Assembly: GCA_902765595.1 (NCBI GenBank)
Contig: CACXAQ010000039.1
Location: 1-36,220, forward strand
Direction: 5' to 3'
Source of the DNA: Oscillospiraceae bacterium
Lineage (GTDB): Bacteria; Bacillota; Clostridia; Oscillospirales; Oscillospiraceae
Length of the DNA: 36,220 nt
In this document: in pieces, positions 4,717 through 24,661 of the stretch
How the letters are laid out: each line of letters opens with the position of its first letter
Position numbering within the stretch: the first letter of the stretch is position 1
Notes under the pieces: generated by a model
The model's database searches: none
The model's input: the letters and a program-made list of their open reading frames with translations, nothing else
What the model was told of the DNA's origin: nothing
Translations under genes and position numbers: made by a program

Positions 4717-5192
4717 GGCTCGATTCCCTCCAGGGCCAGCAGCCATTGCTTCCGGGAAAGCCCTCCGGCATAGCCGGTCAGCCGCCCGCCAGCGCCCAGC
4801 ACCCGGTGGCAGGGGATCAGGAGCGAGATGGGGTTGCGCCCCACGGCGCAGCCCACCGCCCGGGCGGAGGCGCAGTTCAGAGCCCGGGCCAGCTCTCCGT
4901 AGGTGCTGGTTTTTCCATAGGGGATCGCCCCCAGCTTTTCCCATACCGCCTGCTGGAAGGCCGTGCCCCGGGGAGCCAGCTTTGGCGTGAAGCTCGGGAC
5001 CTGACCGGCAAAATACAGCTCCAGCCAGCGCCGGGCCTCCTCAAACACGGGGAGGGACTTTTCTTCGAACGCCGGGGAGAGCCTGTGGGCAAAGTGCTTT
5101 TGCCCGTCGAACCACAGGCCGATCAGCGCCTCGCCGTCGCCGGCCAGGGTGATGGGCCCCAGGGGAGAGTCATAGGAGCAGGTATAGTCCAT
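4713..5192 (-). CDS. ogt: Methylated-DNA--protein-cysteine S-methyltransferase
   Basis: A suicide repair enzyme that moves the alkyl group from O6-alkylguanine in DNA to its own cysteine. The 159-residue protein has the helix-turn-helix segment around YGKTSTYGELARAL and the active-site motif PCHRV near residue 128, preceded by GCAVGRNP. Length is normal for the Ogt type without an Ada domain. It lies 6 bases downstream of the esterase gene and overlaps the Nudix gene by four bases, so all are probably one transcript. Confidence 0.95.
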   Translation of the reverse strand: MDYTCSYDSPLGPITLAGDGEALIGLWFDGQKHFAHRLSPAFEEKSLPVFEEARRWLELYFAGQVPSFTPKLAPRGTAFQQAVWEKLGAIPYGKTSTYGELARALNCASARAVGCAVGRNPISLLIPCHRVLGAGGRLTGYAGGLSRKQWLLALEGIEP

Positions 5193-5198
5193 GGCGCT

Positions 5199-5987
5199 TC
5201 AAAAGGCCTCCTTCTGTGTCAGGAACAGGTGCAGGAAGTCCCGGAAAACCGGCTCCCAGGCCACCTCGTGATGGGGCTGCTCCGGGTGGACGACTTCCTT
5301 GAGCAGCCGCTTTGGGCAGCAGTCATTCAAGATCTCAAAGGTCCATCGCTCGCTTTGGAAGATGTCTTTTTCCAGCTCGTCTCCCGCCCCGGTGTACAGA
5401 TAGAGGAAGGGCTTTGTCGGCCCCAGCACGCTGTGGATCCAGCGGGCCATATCGTCCCGGCTGAAGAGCAGGAACGCGGGGGAGAGGACGCCTCCGGCGC
5501 AGAACAGCTCCGGGCGGCTGAGGACCGCGAAAAAGGCCATCATCCCGCCGCAGGAGCTGCCGCAGAAGGCGGTGCTGCGCCGGCCGGTGCGGACGGGAAA
5601 GCGCTCGTTCACCGCGGGCATGACCGTGTTCACCACAAAGTCCAGAAAGGTCTCGCCCGCGGGCTTGAAGTCGGCCTTGAGCTCCCCCGGAACCTGGACC
5701 TCGCCGATGCACCCGGGCGTCAGCTCGCACTCCCGCAGGGGGTTGTCGTTGTGGATGCCCACGAGAATGGCCGCCTGTCCGCTTGCCGCCCGCTCGGCCT
5801 CCATGGCCTCCCGGGTGTACCAGCAGCCGAAGCCGGAGCTCTCCTTGTCAAACAGGTTCTGCCCGTCGGTCATGTAGATCACGGGGAAGGTCTCGCCCTC
5901 CTCATGGGCGGGGACGTATACGCGCACCAGCCTGTCCTCCCGGCCCGGATAGGGCAGGAGCAGACGCTCTGTTTTTGCCTGGATCAT
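5199..5987 (-). CDS. Putative esterase, alpha/beta hydrolase (Esterase D/enterochelin esterase-like)
   Basis: The 262-residue cytosolic protein has the alpha/beta-hydrolase layout of the PF00756 family: a strand followed by VIYMTDGQNLF near residue 40, the nucleophile elbow G-S-S-C-G-G near residue 147, an acidic residue after LYTGAGDE near 205, and a late histidine (PHHEVAW near 240). The substrate cannot be read from sequence; relatives hydrolyse carbohydrate acetyl or S-formylglutathione-type esters. GGGAGGG lies 6 bases before the ATG. It sits between the oligoendopeptidase gene (28-base gap) and ogt (6-base gap), all on the minus strand. Confidence 0.85.
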   Translation of the reverse strand: MIQAKTERLLLPYPGREDRLVRVYVPAHEEGETFPVIYMTDGQNLFDKESSGFGCWYTREAMEAERAASGQAAILVGIHNDNPLRECELTPGCIGEVQVPGELKADFKPAGETFLDFVVNTVMPAVNERFPVRTGRRSTAFCGSSCGGMMAFFAVLSRPELFCAGGVLSPAFLLFSRDDMARWIHSVLGPTKPFLYLYTGAGDELEKDIFQSERWTFEILNDCCPKRLLKEVVHPEQPHHEVAWEPVFRDFLHLFLTQKEAF

Positions 5988-6015
5988 CCGGATCCCTCCC
6001 GTATGCTTTGCATGC

Positions 6016-7713
6016 TCAGCCCAGCTTGGCTTTCAGGACCTCCGCCTGCCGTTCGGCAAAGGCGGCGGTGACTTTCACCGTCTCCGGGTCCAGGGGATTG
6101 GGGATGCCGGCCCGCTCCAGGGTCTCAAAATAGCCGTACATGCCGCCCATGGCGCACAGCTTCAGATAGCTGCCCCAGGCATCGTCCCCCTCCACGGCCT
6201 TGCGGTAGAGGGAGAAGGCGCCCATCTGGGCCAGGGCGTAGTCGATGTAGTAGAAGGGGTAGAGGAAGATGTGCTGCTTCTGCATCCAGAAGCCGCCGCC
6301 CTCCAGGAAGGCGTTGCCGTCATAGCTGCGCCAGGGCATGTACTTCTCCTCGATCTCCTTCCAGTACCGCCGCCAGTCGGCGCTGCGGGAGTCGGGATTC
6401 TCAAACACCCGGTGCTGGAACTCGTCCACACACACCAGATAGGGGATGGTCTTCAGCGCGTCGCAGAAGTGGGCGTAGCGGTACTTGTCCGCCTTGTCGC
6501 CGAAGAAGCTCTCCATGTAGGGGTAGGCGAAGTGCTCCATGGACATGGAGTGGATCTCGTTGATCTCGCTGGTGGAGAAGGTCATGCCGGAGTGGGGCAG
6601 GCGGCGGGAGGCGTAATAGGCCTCAAAGGCGTGGCCCGCCTCATGGGTCAGCACGTCCACGTCCGCGGAGGTGCCGTTGAAGTTGGAGAAGATGAAGGGA
6701 GCCTTGTACTTGGGCAGGAAGGTGCAGTAGCCGCCCAGGTGCTTGTTCTCCCGGGTGACGAAGTCGAACATCTCGTGCTCCACCATGAAGTTGAAGTACT
6801 CGCCGGTCTCGGGGGAGAGGGCCTCGTACATCTGCCGGGCCTTCTCGGTCAGCTCCTCGGGGGTGCCGATGGGAACGGCGTTGCCGTCGGGAAAGACCAG
6901 ATCCTCGTCGTACCAGCTGAGCTTCTCCAGGCCCAGCCGAGCGGCCTGCTCCTTGTACATCTTGTCGCACAGGGGCGTGATGTAGAGCCGCACCGCCTCG
7001 CGGAACCGGGCGGCCTTCTCGGCGTCGTAGTCGTAGCGGCCTCTGGCCAGATAGATGTAGTCGATGTAGCTGTCAAAGCCCAGCTTTTTGGCGATGGAGC
7101 AGCGGGTCTTGACCAGCTTCCCGTACAGCTCGTCCAGCTTGGGCGCGATGCCCTCGTAGAGCTTTGCCCATTCCCGGAACGCGGCGCGGCGCTCCTCCCG
7201 GTCGGTGGACTGCATGTGCCGCAGCAGCCCGTAGAAATTGCACTTTTCGCCCATGAACTCCACCGAGCAGGTGGCCGCGGCCTTGGAATACTCGGTGGCC
7301 AGCTTGTTCTCCCGGATGGAGGGCTGGACGATGGCGGCGCTGATGAGCTTTTCCTGGGTCTCCTCGTCCTTGAACATCAGCGTGCCGTATTTTTCCTCCA
7401 GCTGGGGCCGGAAGGGACTCTCCAGCAGCGCGGCGGTGCCCTTCTTGAAGACCATCATCAGCTTCGGGATCTCGGTGTTGAAGAACTGCATCTCCCCGTC
7501 GTAGAATTCGTCCTTCATGTTCATGGTGTTGCGCACATGGGCAATGGTCCGCTGGGTCATGGCCTCGTCCAGCACCTGCTGCCATTCCCGGAAGGCCGCG
7601 TCGGCCTCCTCAAAGCTGGCCGCCTTCTTGAACTTCTTGACGCAGGCCAGATAGTCCTTCTTGACCTGGGCCACGTCCGGCCGGACATAGGGGAGATCTC
7701 TGAATTTTTCCAT
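6016..7713 (-). CDS. M3 family oligoendopeptidase (PepF/thimet type), copy 1
   Basis: A zinc metallopeptidase that cuts short peptides in the cytosol. The 565-residue protein ends its catalytic core with the zinc motif HEAGH (in LTHEAGHAFEAY) and the downstream EIHSMSMEH helix supplying the third zinc ligand. The start MEKFRDLPY at 7713 has AAGGAG 8 bases upstream; the frame is open further upstream through a palindromic repeat element but that extension has no family similarity. It is the first gene of the run with the esterase, ogt and Nudix genes. A paralogue is encoded at 19344-21029. The 5' untranslated region would run through the repeat element at 7755-7925. Confidence 0.95.
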   Translation of the reverse strand: MEKFRDLPYVRPDVAQVKKDYLACVKKFKKAASFEEADAAFREWQQVLDEAMTQRTIAHVRNTMNMKDEFYDGEMQFFNTEIPKLMMVFKKGTAALLESPFRPQLEEKYGTLMFKDEETQEKLISAAIVQPSIRENKLATEYSKAAATCSVEFMGEKCNFYGLLRHMQSTDREERRAAFREWAKLYEGIAPKLDELYGKLVKTRCSIAKKLGFDSYIDYIYLARGRYDYDAEKAARFREAVRLYITPLCDKMYKEQAARLGLEKLSWYDEDLVFPDGNAVPIGTPEELTEKARQMYEALSPETGEYFNFMVEHEMFDFVTRENKHLGGYCTFLPKYKAPFIFSNFNGTSADVDVLTHEAGHAFEAYYASRRLPHSGMTFSTSEINEIHSMSMEHFAYPYMESFFGDKADKYRYAHFCDALKTIPYLVCVDEFQHRVFENPDSRSADWRRYWKEIEEKYMPWRSYDGNAFLEGGGFWMQKQHIFLYPFYYIDYALAQMGAFSLYRKAVEGDDAWGSYLKLCAMGGMYGYFETLERAGIPNPLDPETVKVTAAFAERQAEVLKAKLG

Positions 7714-7754
7714 GATAGGAACTCCTTCCGTTGTTTTTTTCTGTTCTGAGAGCA

Positions 7755-7925
7755 GTATAATGCTTATATGATGGCGAAAAGCGAAAAAGCTTTTCGCCGC
7801 GCAGCGTTGCTGCGCAGCAAAACAGCATGGCTGTTTTGCCATATATTCATTGCAATGAGCATTGTCGTTTGGCAGCGAAATCAATCGAATTGTCGATTGA
7901 TTTCGCCATCCGATGATCATTATAA
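7755..7925. repeat. Palindromic dispersed element, copy A (MITE-like)
   Basis: The core is bounded by exact inverted 10-mers GATGGCGAAA (7770-7779) and TTTCGCCATC (7901-7910), with imperfect outward extension to include TATAATG-like bases on both sides. Inside are stacked hairpins: GCGAAAAGC...GCTTTTCGC, GCGCAGC...GCTGCGC, AAAACAGC...GCTGTTTT and TCAATCGA...TCGATTGA. A second copy is at 29213-29420. Copy A lacks about 40 bases present in copy B. No transposase is encoded. Confidence 0.85.
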
Positions 7926-7980
7926 CATGGTTTTGTGATGAAATCCACCGGGAATCGCCTGCTTCGCAGGGCCCGGGCAT

Positions 7981-8011
7981 AAAAAAACAGCCGCCCCTTC
8001 AGACAGCTGCT
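7981..8011 (-). terminator. Intrinsic terminator, minus strand
   Basis: On the minus strand a 10-bp stem with G-U pairs (AGCAGCTGTC / GGCGGCTGTT) is followed by seven T. It would end the transcript that starts at 8639-8667 and covers 8034-8612. Its descending arm and T-run are the same as in the tRNA-Gln terminator at 8784-8820. Confidence 0.7.
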
Positions 8012-8033
8012 TTTCCGTCATGTTCGGAGCGGG

Positions 8034-8288
8034 TCAATAGGTCGAAGCGCGGGGGCCGGAAAGCTTCCAGATCCCCTGGTCCCTGCGCGGGGTGAAGTCT
8101 CCCTGCAGCCGCCAGACGCGCTTCCTGCCGCCGTATACGGCCGCCTTTACCCGGCTGCGGCCCGTCATGGCTGCGGTGTCGCCGTGGATCTCAACGTCGA
8201 TCCCATCGTGCAGGGCGGAGAGAATGGCCGAGTGATTCAGGAACACGTCCTTGGCGAGCTTGATCCGATTGCCGAGGTCGCAGATATT
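8034..8288 (-). pseudogene. Unrecognised gene remnant lacking a start
   Basis: The frame is open directly after the stop of the gene at 8289-8612 and in the same phase, running for 84 codons to a stop at 8034. It reads like a real protein tail (hydrophilic, with GIDVEIHGD and RVWRLQGDF stretches), but it has no ATG, and the only internal GTG (8246) has no properly spaced ribosome site. Its GC content is high, unlike the gene before it. I do not recognise the family. It may be the 3' end of a gene whose 5' part was replaced by the small gene at 8289-8612, or a read-through extension of that gene. Confidence 0.5.
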
Positions 8289-8612
8289 TTACGCTTTTCC
8301 GAAGGGAGACAGTTGATAGTCGGATTTGCCTTCCATGAATTCTGAAATGTCCTCTACTGCACGCTCAACATCGCCGGGGTGCCAGTGGGTCCCGTTTGCA
8401 TGTTTTGAATCCATCACATCCATAATAAACTCTCCGCCGTATTCGTACAATTCGAAGATCTGTCCATGAGATTTACCGACAATGACAGGACAATCCGCAG
8501 AAAACCCATCATCCAGCTCGGAAGCAGAGGTCAAGACCAACTCGTACCTGTCTTTCAACTGTTCGTACACCTTAACGGTATCATCAGCAGTAATGTCAAA
8601 CATGTGGAACAC
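8289..8612 (-). CDS. Small acidic protein of unknown function
   Basis: The 107-residue protein is acidic and has no signal peptide or membrane segment. Sequence features include an aromatic/acidic middle (FELYEYGGEFIMDVMD) and a conserved-looking HWHPGD stretch. I do not recognise the family; size and composition resemble orphan immunity proteins, but this is only an impression. The base composition is clearly lower in GC than all neighbours, suggesting acquisition. It has its own good promoter (8639-8667), AAGGGG 9-10 bases before the ATG, and a terminator at 7981-8011 shared with the downstream remnant. Confidence 0.7.
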   Translation of the reverse strand: MFHMFDITADDTVKVYEQLKDRYELVLTSASELDDGFSADCPVIVGKSHGQIFELYEYGGEFIMDVMDSKHANGTHWHPGDVERAVEDISEFMEGKSDYQLSPFGKA

Positions 8613-9941: not shown

Positions 9942-10036
9942 ATCGCGGCCTTCTTTCTGTTTCAGGCTCCGGCGAGCCCACGGCCCGCCTGGGTCCAACC
10001 TTATCACGCGGCTGTCGGAATTGTCAAGGGGAGCGG

Positions 10037-10065
10037 TTGACATTGCCCTCGGCGCTCATTATAAT
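10037..10065 (+). promoter_or_regulatory. sigma-A promoter of the cyclodeaminase-family gene
   Basis: TTGACA (10037-10042), 17 bases, TATAAT (10060-10065): full consensus. It sits back to back with a possible minus-strand TTGACA at 10022-10027. Confidence 0.9.
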
Positions 10066-10095
10066 AGCGGCGGGTAGAAAAAGGAGGGAATCCCT

Positions 10096-10719
10096 ATGGC
10101 TGATCTGGCTTCAAAAAGCTGCGTTGACTTTGCCTCACTTCTGGCCTCCGATGCGCCGGTACCCGGCGGCGGCGGGGCTGCGGCTCTGGCGGGGGCGCTG
10201 GCCGTTTCCCTGGGAGCCATGGCCGGCCGGCTCAGCGCCGGGCGGAAAAAGACGGAGGAGGAACGCCGGGCCCTGGAGGAGCGGATCGAGATCGCGGACG
10301 CCCTGCGCCAGCGGCTCCTCGCTCTGATCGACTGGGACGCGGCGGGCTTTGAGCCGCTTTCCAGGGCCTACGCCCTGCCCAAGGACGACCCGGACCGGAA
10401 GACGAAGCTGCGGGATGCCTCTCTGCGGGCCTGTGAGGCGCCGATGGAGATGCTCCGCTGCTGCGGCGAGACGGCCCAAGTCCTGCAGGAGCTGTGGGAG
10501 CGGGTCAGCCCTCTGCTCCTCAGCGACGTGGGCTGCGCGGCTGCCCTCTGCCGGGGCGCGCTGGAGGCCGCGGCCATGAACGTCTGGGTCAATACCCGCA
10601 GCCTCCCCGAGGACCCTGCGGCCCGCGCCCTGAACGAGGAAGTGCGCCGGATCCTGGACGCCGCCCTCCCGGCAGCGGAGGAAGTGACCGCCGCCGTGCG
10701 GGAGAAGCTGCAGAACTGA
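10096..10719 (+). CDS. fchA: Cyclodeaminase/cyclohydrolase family protein (FchA-like)
   Basis: Members of this family (the C-terminal domain of formiminotransferase-cyclodeaminase, and FchA) convert 5,10-methenyl-THF and 10-formyl-THF into each other or deaminate 5-formimino-THF. The 207-residue all-helical protein has the family glycine-rich N-terminal motif (PVPGGGGAAALAGAL, residues about 16-30) and the later DVGCAAALCRGALEAAAMNVWVN region in parts near 137-160. The start at 10096 has AAGGAGGG 6-7 bases upstream. It is followed by a THF riboswitch and a folate transporter/5-formyl-THF cyclo-ligase gene, which supports one-carbon folate metabolism. Which of the two reactions it performs is not decided by the sequence. 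Confidence 0.9.
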   Translation: MADLASKSCVDFASLLASDAPVPGGGGAAALAGALAVSLGAMAGRLSAGRKKTEEERRALEERIEIADALRQRLLALIDWDAAGFEPLSRAYALPKDDPDRKTKLRDASLRACEAPMEMLRCCGETAQVLQELWERVSPLLLSDVGCAAALCRGALEAAAMNVWVNTRSLPEDPAARALNEEVRRILDAALPAAEEVTAAVREKLQN

Positions 10720-10744
10720 GATCTCCCTGAAAACACAACAAAGT

Positions 10745-10850
10745 GCCAGAGTAGGAACAGCGCGTTGGCTGAATAGCCTGAAGTGCCGCGGGATGGGAAG
10801 TTGTCCGCGGACGAAGTCGGTGCTGTCTCCGCTTCCGCTGCCACCAGAGA
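10745..10850 (+). ncRNA. Tetrahydrofolate (THF) riboswitch
   Basis: The 5' leader of the FolT fusion gene matches the THF-I riboswitch as I remember it: an opening CAGAGTAGG strand, helix P2 ACAGC (10757-10761) with GCTGT (10822-10826), the conserved GCGTT next to it, and helix P3 CCGCGG (10786-10791) with CCGCGG (10805-10810) enclosing the near-invariant GATGGGAAGTTGT loop, then CGAA and the closing CTCCGCTTCCGCT strand. A small extra hairpin GGCT/AGCC (10767-10778) is inserted in the junction. THF-class aptamers sit upstream of folate transport and synthesis genes, exactly as here. Confidence 0.9.
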
Positions 10851-19343: not shown

Positions 19344-21029
19344 TCAGGCCCGGATGCTCTCCAAAAGAGCCTCCACATTTCTGGCCAGATCCGCCAGAGC
19401 GCCGGGCTGGAAGGGAGAGGGGAAGCCCGCCTCCTCCAGCAGGTCCGTCCAGACCTTCTCGCCGCCCTGCCTGCTCAGCCGCAGATAGCGGGCAAAGGCG
19501 TCGTCATAATCCTTGCGGGAGGCCAGCAGGAACTGGAAGGCCGCCGTCTGGGCCAGGCAGTAGTCGATGTAATAGAAGGGGCTTTCGTAAATGTGCATCT
19601 GATACTGCCAGCGGGTGCCCTTTTCCAGATAGGGCATGCCCTCAAAGGAAATGTGGGGGCGGAACTGCTCTTCCAGCTTGAGCCACTCCGCGTCACGCTG
19701 GTCCGGCGTCAGATCCGGATTGGCGTAGACGATGTGCTGGAAGGCGTCCACCATGGTGCCGTAGGGGATGAAGGAGAAGCTCTCCAGAGCGTGCATGAAT
19801 TTGTAGCGCTCCGCGTCCTTGCCGAAGAATTTCTCCATGTAGGGCCAGGCGAAGAACTCCATGGACATGGAGTGGGTCTCGGCGGTCTCCATGCCGCCGC
19901 AGCCCAGCTCCAGGGCAAAGCGGTTGTCGGCGATCAGGTAGGCGTTCAGGGCGTGGCCGGCCTCGTGGGTCACCACGTCCACGTCGCCGGTGGTGCCGTT
20001 AAAGTTGGCAAGGATGAAGGGCTGCTTATACTTGGCAAACTCCGTGCAGTAGCCGCCGCCCCACTTGTTCTTGCGGGAATCCACGTCGAAGGCGTCGTTT
20101 TCCAGCATCAGATCGATGAAGTCGCCGGTCTCCCTGCCCATGGCGTGATACATCTCTTTGGCCGCGGCAAAGATCTCCTCCTTGCTGCAGGGGACGGGGT
20201 CGCCGCCGGGCATGATGACGCCGTCGTCGTAGAACTTGTAGTCCTCGATGCCCAGGCGTTTGGCGTTCTCGGTGCGGAGCCTTGCCACCACGGGGACGAT
20301 GTCCTTCAGCACGTTCCTGCGGAAGTTTGCCACCTTCTCCTGGTCGTAGCACAGGCGGCCCATCCGGTAGTAGCCCAGCTCCACGAAGTCCTTGTAGCCC
20401 ATCTTCTTGGCCATCCGGTCCCGGATATGGACCAGACGGTCAAAGATGTCGTCAAGCTCTTTCTTGTGCTCTTCCAGCCCCCGGCCCAGCACCTCGAAGC
20501 ATTCTTTGCGGGTCTGGCGGTCGGCGTCCTTGGCGTACTTCATCAGCATGGCCCGGGGCAGCTTCTCGCCCTTCCACTCAAACTCCATGGCGGCCATCAG
20601 GTCGGAGTATTCGCGCACGACCTTGTTCTCCTCCACCATGTCCTCGATGATCTCATTGGACATGGACTTGCGCTGCACCTCCATGGACTGGAACAGCACC
20701 GGGGAGAGGGCCTCTTCCAGCTCTTTGCGGAAGGGAGAGTCCAGCAGGGCGGAGGCGTAGGCCACGTCGTAGTTGCCCACCACGGGGCCGATCTCGTCGT
20801 AGTACTCGTTTTCGGCCACGTAGAAGGGATCCACGGTGTTGATGGTGTAGCGCATGCTGGCAAGGCTCGCGTTGGTGGAAAACTCCAGGGTGATCTTCAG
20901 GTAATCCTCGCGGGCGGCCAGGATCTCTTCCACGCTTTTGGCGTTTTTGACCCGGGGGATCACGTCCTCCATTACGGCCTTGATCTCCTCCAGTGTTACG
21001 CGGCGATAGGGCAGCTCGGAAACTTTCAT
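19344..21029 (-). CDS. M3 family oligoendopeptidase, copy 2
   Basis: The 561-residue zinc metallopeptidase is paralogous to the one at 6016-7713: zinc motif HEAGH (VTHEAGHALNAYL) and ETHSMSMEFFAWPYMEKFF in pieces, matching EIHSMSMEHFAYPYME of copy 1. Both belong to the PepF/M3 group that degrades short peptides in the cytosol. The start at 21029 (MKVSELPYRR) is favoured over an upstream ATG because the latter lies before the predicted transcription region; AAAGGA is 12 bases upstream, so the ribosome site is only moderate. It is monocistronic with a promoter at 21082-21110 and a terminator at 19276-19305. Confidence 0.94.
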   Translation of the reverse strand: MKVSELPYRRVTLEEIKAVMEDVIPRVKNAKSVEEILAAREDYLKITLEFSTNASLASMRYTINTVDPFYVAENEYYDEIGPVVGNYDVAYASALLDSPFRKELEEALSPVLFQSMEVQRKSMSNEIIEDMVEENKVVREYSDLMAAMEFEWKGEKLPRAMLMKYAKDADRQTRKECFEVLGRGLEEHKKELDDIFDRLVHIRDRMAKKMGYKDFVELGYYRMGRLCYDQEKVANFRRNVLKDIVPVVARLRTENAKRLGIEDYKFYDDGVIMPGGDPVPCSKEEIFAAAKEMYHAMGRETGDFIDLMLENDAFDVDSRKNKWGGGYCTEFAKYKQPFILANFNGTTGDVDVVTHEAGHALNAYLIADNRFALELGCGGMETAETHSMSMEFFAWPYMEKFFGKDAERYKFMHALESFSFIPYGTMVDAFQHIVYANPDLTPDQRDAEWLKLEEQFRPHISFEGMPYLEKGTRWQYQMHIYESPFYYIDYCLAQTAAFQFLLASRKDYDDAFARYLRLSRQGGEKVWTDLLEEAGFPSPFQPGALADLARNVEALLESIRA

Positions 21030-21081
21030 GGGGATACACGTCCTTTCTTTCAAAGCTTCAGCGATGATTTTGCTCGCTTCC

Positions 21082-21110
21082 ACTATACACCGGACGATCC
21101 TTCTTTGCAA
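21082..21110 (-). promoter_or_regulatory. Promoter of oligoendopeptidase copy 2
   Basis: Minus strand: TTGCAA (21105-21110), 17 bases, TATAGT (21082-21087). Confidence 0.7.
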
Positions 21111-21232
21111 TCCCGGATCGCCGCGTCCCGGGGCGGAGAGAAGAAAAAGAAAAAATATGAAATTTTTGAATCTGCCTGTTCACCGGGCGAAATGTGTGTT
21201 ATACTGTAAAAAAAGTTTCGGGGAGGATGGAA

Positions 21233-22531
21233 ATGGAACAGACTCTCAATGAAAAACTGCTGGCCTTCCTGGCCGCCAGCCCCACCGCCTTTCACGCCTG
21301 CCGCAACCTGGCCGGGCGCCTGGAGGGGGAGGGCTACCGGGAGCTTTTGGAGCAGGAGGAATGGCAGCTGCAGCCCGGCGGGAAGTACTTCGTCCGCCGC
21401 AATGGCTCCGCGCTCATCGCCTTCCGCATCCCCACCGGCGGCGTCCGCGGCTTTCTGATGATGGCCGCCCATTCCGATTCCCCCAGCTTCAAGATCAAGG
21501 AACACGGGGCGGTGCCCACGGCGGGGATGTACACCCGCCTGAACGTGGAGAAATACGGCGGCATGCTCTGCTCCTCCTGGATGGATCGGCCCCTGTCCGT
21601 GGCGGGCCGGGTCGCGGTCCGGGAAGGGGAGCGGATCGTCCTGCGTCTGGTGAACGTGGACCGGGACCTGCTGCTGATCCCCAACGTGGCCATCCACATG
21701 GACCGCAGCGCCAACGACGGCAAGAAGTTCGATCCCAACGTGGACATGCTGCCTCTCTTCGGGGACGCCTCCGCCGAGGACAAGTTCGACGCCCTCATCG
21801 CGGAAGAAGTGGGCGCTCGCCCGGAGGACGTGCTGGCGAAGGACCTCTTCCTCTATCCCCGCACCCCCGGCACCGTCTGGGGCGCGAACGAAGAGTACCT
21901 GTCCTCGCCCCGGCTGGACGACCTGCAGTGCGTCTTCGGCTGCACGGAGGGCTTCCTCCGGGCGGGGGAGACGGAGGAGACCCCGGTGCTCTGCGTCTTC
22001 GACAACGAAGAGGTGGGCAGCGGCACCAAGCAGGGGGCGGACTCCAGCTTCCTGGAGGACGTGCTGGCCCGGATCACGGAGGGGACCGGCGGCAATCTCC
22101 GCCGCTGCCTCGCCAGGAGCTTCCTGGTCTCGGCGGACAACGCCCACGCCGTGCACCCCAATCACCCCGAGTATGCCGACCGGAACGACCGGCCCGAGAT
22201 GAACAAGGGTATTGTCGTAAAATACAACGCCAATCAGCGCTACACCACCGACGCGGTCTCTGCCGCCGCCTTTACGGAACTCTGCCGGGCGGCGGGGGTC
22301 CCCACCCAGCGCTTCACCAACCGGGCGGACCTGCCCGGCGGCTCCACGCTGGGGAACATCAGCACCGCCCATGTGTCCGTGGACTCGGTGGACATCGGTC
22401 TTGCCCAGCTGGCCATGCACTCGGCCTACGAGACGGCGGGCACAAAGGACACGGAGTATCTCGTCCGCGCGGCGGAGGCCTTTTTCCGCTGCCGCTTCAG
22501 CCGGGATGAGGACGGCATAAGCCTGCGATAA
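21233..22531 (+). CDS. apeB: M18 family aminopeptidase (aspartyl aminopeptidase type)
   Basis: Removes N-terminal (acidic or other) residues from peptides in the cytosol with two metal ions. The 432-residue protein shows the M18 set: AAHSDSPSFKIK near residue 80, SPRLDDLQCVF near 225, CVFDNEEVGSGTKQGA near 255, DNAHAVHPNHPEY near 305 and GSTLGNIS near 370. The ATG at 21233 is chosen because GGGGAGG (21220-21226) lies 6 bases upstream; two earlier in-frame ATGs overlap or precede that site. A plausible -10 (TATACT near 21200) exists with a weak -35. It runs 41 bases upstream of the beta-lactamase-like gene. Confidence 0.93.
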   Translation: MEQTLNEKLLAFLAASPTAFHACRNLAGRLEGEGYRELLEQEEWQLQPGGKYFVRRNGSALIAFRIPTGGVRGFLMMAAHSDSPSFKIKEHGAVPTAGMYTRLNVEKYGGMLCSSWMDRPLSVAGRVAVREGERIVLRLVNVDRDLLLIPNVAIHMDRSANDGKKFDPNVDMLPLFGDASAEDKFDALIAEEVGARPEDVLAKDLFLYPRTPGTVWGANEEYLSSPRLDDLQCVFGCTEGFLRAGETEETPVLCVFDNEEVGSGTKQGADSSFLEDVLARITEGTGGNLRRCLARSFLVSADNAHAVHPNHPEYADRNDRPEMNKGIVVKYNANQRYTTDAVSAAAFTELCRAAGVPTQRFTNRADLPGGSTLGNISTAHVSVDSVDIGLAQLAMHSAYETAGTKDTEYLVRAAEAFFRCRFSRDEDGISLR

Positions 22532-22572: not shown

Positions 22573-23757
22573 ATGAAAACGAGAAGATTCCTTTTACAGC
22601 TCCTTGCGCTGATGCTCTGCGCCGTGATGCTCCTGCCCCTGACTGCATGGGCGGACGGCGAGGAAGAGGACGTGATCGAAGAGGACCAGACGGGCTTTGC
22701 GCTCATTGACGCGTCCGCACTGCAGAAGATGGTGGAGGATTATCTGGAGTCCAAGGCATACCGGAAGGACCACGTCAGCATCGGCTACTGCTATCTGGAT
22801 ACCGGAGACACCTGGTACTATAACGGAGACACCTGGCGCTACAGTGCGGCCATGTACCGTCTGCCGCTGACGATGATCTATGCGGAGAAGGAGTATAACG
22901 GCGAGCTGACCCCGGATTCTGACTTGAAGGGCGTGAAGCTCCAGCAGGCGGAGGAGAACATCCTGGTCTACGGCAGCAACGACAACACCCACAAGCTGAT
23001 GGATCTCCTCGGCAATGAGAAGGACGTGCGCAAGCTGTACCAGGCCTATTCCGACCTGCCGGAGGAATACTACGATCCGGATTTCTATGATTACAGCTAC
23101 TTCACCGCCAACTTCACCACCGACGTGACCAAGACCCTCTATCGGGAGAGCGAGCGCTTCCCCGGCATCATCGAGCTGCTGAAGCGCTCCGACGACGGAA
23201 AGTACTTCGACCGGGCCCTGGGCGGAGAATATGAAGTCGCCCAGAAGACCGGCGTGTTCACCGACCGCCGCGGCGTGCAGTACAACAACGACACCGGCAT
23301 CATCTACACTGAGCACCCCTTCGTGCTGACGATCATGCTCCAGGACCTGGGCACGGACGACACCATCTGCCGGGAGCTGGCGGTCCTGTTCAAGGACTAC
23401 ACCCTGTCTCTGGACGAGGCCTATGCCGCCCTGCAGGAGAAGATCCAGCAGGCCCAGACGCCTGAGACGGAAGAACCCGAGACCGAGACGCCCGAGACGG
23501 AAGCGCCCGAGACGGAGGCGCCCGCGACCACCGAGCCCACGGCCACGGAGGCGCCCGCCGAGACGGAGCCCGAGGAACCCCAGGCCACGCAGGAGCCCGC
23601 AAAGGAGCAGAACACCGCCAAGAAGGGCACCGCGGCCCCCTATCTGCGCCTGGGCGTGATCCTGATCGCGGCGGCCCTGTTCGTCATCCTGCTGCTGGGC
23701 CAGATCGTCCAGCTGATCCTGCGCGGGAAAGCGCGGCGCGAGGACGATCAGGATTGA
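22573..23757 (+). CDS. Membrane-anchored beta-lactamase-like protein, catalytically degenerate
   Basis: The 394-residue protein has a signal peptide (1-27), a serine-hydrolase/class A beta-lactamase-like domain (about 45-285), a Glu/Thr/Pro repeat stalk (about 295-350, repeated PETE/APETE) and one C-terminal membrane helix (about 358-382) with a basic end, so the domain would stand outside the membrane. The position of the catalytic SxxK motif reads A93-M-Y-R96 (in SAAMYRLPL): both the nucleophilic serine and the lysine are replaced. The SDN-like element (GSNDNTHKL near 136) and the KTG triad (QKTGVF near 225) remain. A binding or sensing rather than hydrolytic role is inferred. GGAGGG precedes the ATG. 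It is probably co-transcribed with the M18 gene and the lipoprotein gene that follows. Confidence 0.82.
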   Translation: MKTRRFLLQLLALMLCAVMLLPLTAWADGEEEDVIEEDQTGFALIDASALQKMVEDYLESKAYRKDHVSIGYCYLDTGDTWYYNGDTWRYSAAMYRLPLTMIYAEKEYNGELTPDSDLKGVKLQQAEENILVYGSNDNTHKLMDLLGNEKDVRKLYQAYSDLPEEYYDPDFYDYSYFTANFTTDVTKTLYRESERFPGIIELLKRSDDGKYFDRALGGEYEVAQKTGVFTDRRGVQYNNDTGIIYTEHPFVLTIMLQDLGTDDTICRELAVLFKDYTLSLDEAYAALQEKIQQAQTPETEEPETETPETEAPETEAPATTEPTATEAPAETEPEEPQATQEPAKEQNTAKKGTAAPYLRLGVILIAAALFVILLLGQIVQLILRGKARREDDQD

Positions 23758-23782: not shown

Positions 23783-24583
23783 ATGAAAAGAATCCTCTGT
23801 ATCCTTCTGGCCTTGGCGCTGTGCCTGTGCCTGTGCGGCTGCGGCGGCAGCTCCCGGGAAGTCCGGACGGTGACGGTCCTGGTGGAACAGGACTATTCCC
23901 TGGCCTTCCGCACCGGAGACCCCACCGCCTACTACGTGGTCGCCGCCATTGAGGCGCTGAACGCGGAGGGCAAGGTGGATGAGCTTTCCGTCAAGTGGTT
24001 CGGGACGCGGCTCGTCTCCTTCGGGGACGACGGCGAAGCCCTGGGCAAGCTGGATCCCGCCGAGCCGCGCAGCTTCATCATCGGCGTGGACACCAACTCC
24101 TTCCCCATGGCCTATCTCACCAACGGCCAGTGCTGGGGCTTCGATATCGAGCTGGCTACCGCTGTGTGCGAGCTGCTGGGCTGGGAACTGAAGATCCAGT
24201 CCATCGAAAAGGAAGACGTCTACATCGAGCTCTCCTCCGGCAATATCGACTGCGCCTGGGGCGGCATCGCCCTGGATCCGCAGGAGGTGGCCGACGGAAA
24301 GATCGCCCAGTACGGGCCCTATGTCCACAATGACATCGTGATCGCCAAGCGCGGCGACGCCTTTATCGAGAACAAGTACATGCTGGCCAACAAGGCCCTG
24401 GCCATGTGCTCCACCCAGGAGGCCATGGACGCGCTGCAGACGGACCCCGGAATCGTGGACCGGCTGGGGCAGATCTCCCGGCTGGCCGGCGGCACCACCG
24501 AGTGCTTCCAGTATCTCTACCAGGGCAGGAGCGATGTGATCCTGACAGACACCACCGCCATCTACTACTTCAACTGCCACTGA
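23783..24583 (+). CDS. Solute-binding lipoprotein (family 3), apparently circularly permuted
   Basis: The 266-residue protein has a signal peptide with lipobox L17-C-G-C20, so it would be lipid-anchored. Residues about 30-80 (DYSLAFRTGDP, AIEALNAEGKVDELSVKWFG) look like the extreme C-terminal segment of amino-acid binding proteins (GlnH type: YGIAF.KG....ALK.L..NG....I..KWFG). Residues 98-266 then give the normal N-terminal and middle part (IIGVDTNSFPMAY, GFDIELATAVCELLGW, IDCAWGGIALDP, YGPYVHNDIVI, DVILTDTTAIYYF) and the protein stops where the usual C-terminal segment would begin. All parts of the fold are present in rotated order. No permease or ATPase gene is adjacent. AGGTCGAGA precedes the ATG; a strong terminator follows. 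Confidence 0.85.
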   Translation: MKRILCILLALALCLCLCGCGGSSREVRTVTVLVEQDYSLAFRTGDPTAYYVVAAIEALNAEGKVDELSVKWFGTRLVSFGDDGEALGKLDPAEPRSFIIGVDTNSFPMAYLTNGQCWGFDIELATAVCELLGWELKIQSIEKEDVYIELSSGNIDCAWGGIALDPQEVADGKIAQYGPYVHNDIVIAKRGDAFIENKYMLANKALAMCSTQEAMDALQTDPGIVDRLGQISRLAGGTTECFQYLYQGRSDVILTDTTAIYYFNCH

Positions 24584-24601
24584 GCTGAATCGCCAATCCA
24601 A

Positions 24602-24639
24602 AAGCTTCCCCCCGAAAGCATTCGGGGGGAAGCTTTTTT
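24602..24639 (+). terminator. Intrinsic terminator after the lipoprotein gene
   Basis: Perfect 15-bp stem AAGCTTCCCCCCGAA/TTCGGGGGGAAGCTT with a 4-base loop followed by a T-run to 24639. Confidence 0.92.
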
Positions 24640-24661
24640 CGGAAAGGCAGGGGCAAAGCGG

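Follow-up and report, generated by a model that had tools for sequence, protein, structure and literature searches.

Is a solute-binding lipoprotein that carries the usual C-terminal end of its family directly behind the lipid anchor an intact protein of rotated order, and, if so, how did the rotation arise and what does the protein now do? The question is posed by a gene on contig CACXAQ010000039.1 of an Oscillospiraceae bacterium (GenBank assembly GCA_902765595.1). The whole stretch of 36,220 nucleotides is called the window below; it is one of the 61 contigs of a genome of 2.14 Mb that is 84% complete. A preliminary description, made from the letters of the window, had claimed that the gene encodes a circularly permuted family 3 (SBP_bac_3) binding lipoprotein from which nothing is lost; its coordinates and quoted peptides were correct on checking. 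Here, we propose that this is a permuted lipoprotein whose clade began as an extra binding protein of an ATP-binding cassette (ABC) operon and was orphaned in the window's lineage, and that rotation has recurred in the family. The probability of this reading as a whole is put at about 0.75. Its parts are not equally firm: it is practically certain that the gene of the window encodes a genuine family 3 binding lipoprotein, complete and circularly permuted, and recurrence of family 3 rotations in gut Clostridia, at several cut points, is very probable.

In normal-order family 3 proteins, three parts of the domain follow one another as A-B-C. All three are present in the window protein, and the order met is C-A-B instead (Table 1). 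The protein scored 63.2 bits against SBP_bac_3 (PF00497; curated Pfam cut-off 26.4), its best stretch, residues 99–194, corresponding to positions 2–96 of the 132 of the profile. In NCBIfam NF008426, residues 33–75 match positions 219–262 of 266, that is, the end of the family lies at the start of the protein; a split match of this kind, C-terminal part first, is what the preliminary description had proposed to look for. The match to NF007029 covers residues 93–263. With hidden Markov models (HMMs) of the segments built from 75 normal-order relatives, C was located at residues 38–73 (E = 3e-4), A at 98–189 (E = 1.7e-21), and B at 195–258 (E = 0.035). Residues 30–80, on whose likeness to the family end the preliminary description had staked its claim, do align there: a profile of the N-terminal segment from 40 related rows matched columns 171–225 of the 226 columns of the normal-order profile (hhalign, 98.9%, E = 2e-17), and 20 column-shuffled control profiles reached at most 1.0%. 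Judged by these profiles, the likeness of segment C is far beyond chance. In a phmmer search against the Protein Data Bank (PDB), the three printed alignments (3hv1, 4ohn, and 4zv1) were divided in the same manner. The AlphaFold2 model of the protein is confident (pLDDT 92.1), with segment C predicted as a strand (27–43) and two helices (48–61 and 64–73). Thus, the claim of a permutation without loss is borne out by the profiles, the conserved relatives, and the model.

Table 1. Features of the permuted gene and its surroundings in the window
Feature	Position	Strand	Basis
M18 aminopeptidase, first gene of likely operon	21194..22531	+	PF02127, 396.6 bits; operon inferred from spacing and strand
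Beta-lactamase-fold protein with apparent C-terminal membrane segment, upstream neighbor	22573..23757	+	PF13354, 42.2 bits; membrane segment read from sequence
Permuted family 3 solute-binding lipoprotein, 266 residues, ATG to TGA	23783..24583	+	ORF, profiles, model
Lipoprotein signal peptide, lipobox LCGC, Cys20 lipid anchor	23783..23842	+	Sequence; Cys20 invariance
Segment C (residues 27–78): C-terminal helices of lobe 1 with the second hinge strand; last part of a normal-order protein	23861..24016	+	NF008426, HMM C, hhalign, model
Linker from old C terminus to old N terminus (residues 79–96)	24017..24070	+	Gap between C and A
Segment A (residues 97–189): first hinge strand and the part of lobe 1 that is N-terminal in normal order	24071..24349	+	HMM A, Pfam
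Segment B (residues 190–266): lobe 2, protein end	24350..24580	+	HMM B, NF007029 93–263, model
Strong hairpin followed by T run, likely terminator	24597..24643	+	Fold −32.8 kcal/mol, z −5.81

The signal peptide and lipobox cysteine of a Gram-positive binding lipoprotein are both present; by the lipobox rule, this Cys is the lipid anchor. Cys20 is invariant across 30 aligned rows, and several of the last residues are likewise conserved. Twenty-nine relatives align with the window protein at 59–84% identity. The 30 related loci come from uncultured Clostridiales, Clostridia, Eubacteriales, Oscillospiraceae, or Ruminococcaceae (one from an "uncultured bacterium"), as far as their titles show in metagenome assemblies or uncultured isolates. 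Relatives of the same order, for which the preliminary description had proposed a search, were found across related genomes, and 56 of the 61 genus genomes have a near-full-length gene (down to E = 2.3e-90, covering at least residues 8–263). At the family level, 132 of 300 genomes had a match at E = 1e-10; many of these matches span from the first residues of the query to past 250, and others cover only about 90–260, as normal-order proteins would. In 16 comparisons, the ratio of nonsynonymous to synonymous substitution rates (dN/dS) was 0.15–0.55 for the whole gene, 0.10–0.45 for residues 25–80, and 0.11–0.53 for residues 96–266. Purifying selection acts on the gene, the moved segment and the core alike.

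Other rotations were sought by a topology scan of 2,925 non-redundant open reading frames (ORFs) from all gathered loci (numbered L below), those sharing their last 150 residues being counted once. At least 101 proteins of normal order (ABC) and at least 131 of the order of the window (P1; CAB 116, CA 15) were found, together with at least nine P2 proteins (BCA, cut after the first hinge strand), at least two P3 proteins (B-C-A-B, cut inside lobe 2), and at least eight tandem proteins (seven ABCABC and one ABCABCABC, in four family codes); these are lower bounds from E-value cut-offs and listed matches, and they are not frequencies because the searches used permuted queries. Nine proteins in which only A or A-B was detected, including the window relatives L034, L040, and L047, were left out of all topology classes. 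The order and class codes are taken as Oscillospirales-like and Clostridia, respectively. Among the matches listed, P1 occurs in families f1, f3, f10, f15, f16, f17, f20, f21, and f23 of the order and f177, f188, f205, and f217 of the class, P2 in f1, f16, f23, f186, f199, f211, and f82 (the last outside the class), and P3 in f20. The phylum search (398 genomes, E 1e-45 listing) had suggested that rotations are confined to the window's order, no single-domain P1 being seen outside it by match span. This idea was refuted by the class search (381 genomes): among the matches listed, four additional family codes proved to have P1, and three to have P2. One phylum-search match with two stops inside its span turned out to be P2. 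L266 and L270, from class genomes, had been taken as P1 by match span and are of normal order in the topology scan.

The junction between the old end and the old start measures 20–32 residues in 112 P1 proteins, 27–32 in P2, 32 in P3, and 11–27 in the eight tandem proteins; all these lengths were taken on a smaller set of proteins than that of the topology scan. Several rotated genes stand immediately in front of importer genes. All five P2 and both P3 genes with enough flanking DNA lie directly before permease and ATPase genes, and 22 of the 52 P1 genes with enough flank (window clade included) have a same-strand permease and ATPase within 3.5 kb; in these 22, the permease is at most 300 bp downstream in 12 and upstream in 10, the latter as in the window clade. 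This arrangement argues that the rotated proteins work as importer subunits. Six long ORFs (L208–L212 and L135; 741–993 residues) contain consecutive family 3 domains, two or three per protein, with additional sequence behind them, and the tandem ORFs of L209, L210, and L211 also match a permease.

The number of events was estimated from three trees. In the first, a quick tree of 103 rows (redundancy removed at 70% within topology; the 201-residue L122 left out as too short), the window clade forms 37 rows, all P1, with support 100, and P1 changes 11 times, at least nine of these forced by starred branches. In the careful tree (68 rows, the window clade reduced to five representatives), P1 again changes 11 times (at least nine forced), P2 twice, and P3 once. 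In the wider tree, a quick one of 84 rows (redundancy removed at 68% within topology; the window clade again as five representatives), the numbers are 14 (at least nine forced), three, and one. Parsimony counts of this kind may include reversions and do not separate gain from loss; the solved family 3 proteins at the top of the PDB sequence and structure match lists have normal order. Approximately unbiased (AU) tests, with groups named after the trees were seen, rejected a single clade of all P1 (p = 3.4e-9) and of all P2 (p = 0.003). Close neighbors differ in order: P1 L146 pairs with normal L020 (100/100) and P1 L118 with normal L161 (100/98), and the P2 proteins L204 and L205 lie inside a group with three normal rows (100/99, careful tree). 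For 17 proteins of our choice, the nearest normal-order neighbor of segment A ranked in the top 8 of 76 by segment C alone in 13 tests and lower (11, 13, 16, and 55) in four. The window clade groups with the P1 protein L033, with L134, and with normal L126 and L123 in the careful tree (97/92 and 97/83), a grouping that the wider tree leaves unresolved. Because of this grouping, the window clade may share its rotation with L033 and L134. L033 is probably importer-linked, judged from its short flank by likeness to L116, in which the permease follows at 7 bp.

In the window protein, the C-terminal piece of lobe 1 has moved to the front. The cut falls at the second hinge crossover, so that each lobe would be continuous, lobe 1 and then lobe 2, with the anchor beside the hinge. 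In P2, lobe 2 would precede lobe 1, both continuous, with the anchor at a hinge crossover, and in P3 the anchor would be on lobe 2; these geometries are read from the segment orders together with general knowledge of the fold. The most likely route is that the gene was duplicated in tandem and in frame and that both outer parts were then lost, as the preliminary description had suggested. The eight head-to-tail tandem proteins in related genomes support this route indirectly.

The beta-lactamase-fold gene ends 26 bp before the permuted gene and is its same-strand upstream neighbor in 32 of 38 loci, the window included (at least one locus was probably counted twice, as L061 and as L065). A simple terminator scan flagged only a minus-strand site, within the hairpin that follows the permuted gene. 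There is no permease gene adjacent to the permuted gene in the window, as the preliminary description had stated; the two ATPase genes downstream are presumably EcfA-like, with an EcfT of their own. In distant family relatives, the permuted gene closes an operon, after genes for a binding protein, a permease (BPD_transp_1), and an ATPase (ABC_tran), and in some of these operons an epimerase-like gene stands between the ATPase and the permuted gene. In L067 and L068, which belong to the genus, the permease, ATPase, and epimerase-like genes precede the permuted gene, which is the sole binding protein gene in the stretch displayed. The ABC importer genes and the epimerase-like gene are gone from the window locus, and because distant relatives hold the same protein in an amino acid ABC operon, its isolation looks secondary. 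The window clade would thus have begun as an extra binding protein of a polar amino acid ABC operon and later become an orphan in the window's lineage. The epimerase- or racemase-like gene near the ATPase and permuted genes was seen at L071:9915–10739 (−), L068:9292–10053 (+), L102:8827–9642 (+), and eight more places. It has GGEFCGNA and SCASGTAA motifs, the L071 copy gave no Pfam match, and we take it to resemble DapF or PhzF.

When the polar amino acid permease of the relatives was searched for in the window genome, a single match of 75 residues was obtained (E = 3.5e-4). At E = 1e-10, this permease was not found in nine of the 61 genus genomes, of which two are at least 92% complete and most are incomplete. 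All nine keep the permuted gene, and none has a second match to it at E = 1e-5; the protein is therefore kept where this importer was not found. The window genome has one SBP_bac_3 match in all and 22 BPD_transp_1 matches.

The binding motif is altered. The family motif WNGxTxxxR reads WGGIALDPQE in the window protein, DPQEV standing at the place of TxxR, and the Arg is lost. The Arg of the TxxR motif holds the alpha-carboxylate of amino acids. By our own reading of the aligned column, it is missing in 35 of the 37 rows of the window clade, whereas 26 of 31 normal-order rows have it, as do 16 of 21 P1 rows outside the clade and four of six P2 or P3 rows. Because of this absence, the window clade is unlikely to bind alpha-amino acids as is usual in the family, and its ligand is probably not a normally clamped alpha-amino acid. 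Of the features of an amino acid ABC importer subunit, the window protein lacks the clamp Arg and an adjacent permease, and the 75-residue match is all that was found of a cognate permease in the genome, which is 84% complete. The protein would not feed a polar amino acid importer. Its Venus-flytrap fold, as modeled, may still close on a ligand, and together with the adjacent beta-lactamase-fold membrane protein it may form a surface receptor or scavenger of a small compound derived from the wall or from peptides. A lipid-anchored receptor or scavenger acting with this neighbor is the most likely single function, at somewhat under even odds, and a subunit of another importer comes next.

These readings have to be weighed against others. 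One rival holds that the N-terminal segment is an unrelated appendage or a chance likeness, or that the order is an assembly error. It draws on the weakness of single matches of the segment, and some further observations also weigh against the permuted reading. None of the phmmer pairs reaches significance in its second stretch (i-Evalue 900, 12, and 80), lobe 2 matches the normal profile weakly, and segment C went undetected, even with the HMMs from 75 relatives, in nine relatives taken one by one, including L034, which is 84% identical to the window protein. A first small HMM of segment C (eight sequences) gave the window only E = 2.0 and was superseded by the larger HMMs and the profile comparison. 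Foldseek TM-scores were modest (query-normalized 0.33–0.48 in the 50 rows listed), and some sequential structure alignments begin at model residue 44–47, within the moved segment; such comparisons align mainly the A-B part and cannot show a permutation directly. The 50 structures listed resemble family 3 proteins (cyclohexadienyl dehydratase and domains of GluR0 and BvgS are among them), and the list says nothing on other folds. The contrast between the real segment C and its shuffled controls leaves a chance likeness almost no room, and an assembly error is hard to maintain against an identical order in dozens of assemblies and, for rotations in general, a P2 copy on a contig of 2,553,728 bases. 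That the gene is a decaying leftover of a lost transporter, without present function, would agree with the loss of the ABC genes from the locus and the altered binding motif; it is very improbable given that dN/dS stays far under 1 for the moved segment and for the core, and given the near-full-length gene in most genus genomes, and the conserved Cys20 and last residues.

The recurrence of rotation and the departure from transport face alternatives of their own. Permutation may have occurred only a few times, the scatter in the trees coming from reversion or from recombination of permuted with normal paralogues. Such exchange is possible because permuted and normal paralogues share an operon in several genomes, and both the four discordant segment tests and the inability of parsimony to tell gain from loss fit it. 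Nevertheless, three different cuts cannot come from fewer than three events, the moved segment in most tests follows the normal-order neighbor of the core, and one-clade trees are rejected for P1 and for P2. The 131 P1 proteins include the window clade and many near relatives of the window. We consider the few-event explanation improbable. For the function, the clade's beginnings inside ABC operons, the many BPD_transp_1 matches, and the incomplete genome favor a protein that is still the binding subunit of an importer whose permease is encoded elsewhere. The short match of the relatives' permease, the nine genomes that keep the gene without it, and the lost clamp Arg speak against this, and it is unlikely. 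The related suggestion of the preliminary description, that the protein may use a distant transporter, is weakened by that match, yet keeps some ground from the 84% completeness and the number of permease matches. The receptor reading has its own difficulties. The clamp Arg is also missing in five of 31 normal-order rows and present in clade rows L032 and L054. The neighbor is tied to the permuted protein by gene order, and in the window it has AMYR where relatives such as L041 have SMYK (SxxK, the catalytic motif), both expected catalytic residues, Ser and Lys, being replaced.

One natural permuted class of binding protein was already known. Tp0684 (TpMglB-2) of Treponema pallidum, for which, together with relatives in Gram-positives, the name "Type Ic / Cluster Bc" was proposed, is, like the window protein, a bilobed, lipid-anchored ABC binding protein that is circularly permuted in nature, and it binds glucose and changes shape although permuted (PMC4990184). 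Its authors, in the sections used here, add other proteins of spirochetes and gut Gram-positives to the class and suggest that anchoring may lie behind the permutation; there, the proteins are treated as one topological class (PMC4990184). Tp0684 is a sugar-binding Type I / Cluster B protein in which strands from the N terminus were relocated to the chain end, with a fourth hinge crossover as an addition (PMC4990184), whereas here the protein is of the amino acid family 3, the opposite piece moved, P1 and P2 are cut at hinge crossovers that were already present, and there are several different rotations. The normal-order family 3 proteins (4ohn, 3hv1, HisJ 1hsl, LAO 1lst, and GlnH 1wdn) share sequence family and fold with the window protein, which differs from them in segment order and in the lost clamp Arg. 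GlnPQ-type importers (6h30; PMC8025302, as far as its description extends here) have family 3 domains arranged head to tail, as an intermediate of permutation by duplication would have them; they are fused to the permease and not permuted, and the L209–L211 tandems likewise match a permease in the same ORF. The permutation by duplication model predicts functional tandem intermediates and trimming at both ends (PMC3320104), and tandem forms and trimmed ends are both seen among the family 3 relatives. In the text consulted, the model is general and binding proteins do not come up, and the word "periplasmic" is absent from its main text (PMC3320104). No report of a permuted family 3 protein, or of recurrence in family 3, was seen among the matches listed in searches of the open-licence PubMed Central literature.

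In most families that show it, natural circular permutation goes back to one old event. In the present case, one family in related bacteria offers three cut points, close pairs of different order, and tandem forms. This set allows direct tests of how permutation arises and whether its intermediates work, and of whether moving the lipid anchor alters the behavior of a receptor or transporter. Rotated proteins are easily misread in annotation because profile searches report fragments. A broader explanation is more doubtful: Clostridia may rotate family 3 proteins repeatedly, mostly near hinge crossovers, because an anchor at the hinge or on lobe 2 and continuous lobes change the stance at the membrane and the contact with the permease, the window clade having left amino acid transport entirely. 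In that case, rotation would be a reusable evolutionary switch for lipid-anchored receptors.

Some further arrangements were noted. L199 holds adjacent amino acid ABC operons, one headed by a normal and the other by a P1 binding protein (7573–8364 and 9990–10778, both −). In L228, two normal-order binding genes (4880–5689 and 5702–6499, +) lie 12 bp apart before one permease; this pair is likely a starting point for fusion. Elsewhere in the window, 269–706 (−) resembles, by eye, a diverged partial copy of the C-terminal half of 1443–2372 (−), and two similar-looking ORFs with a HEAGHA motif, 6016–7980 (−) and 19344–21110 (−), are presumably M3-type oligopeptidase-like.
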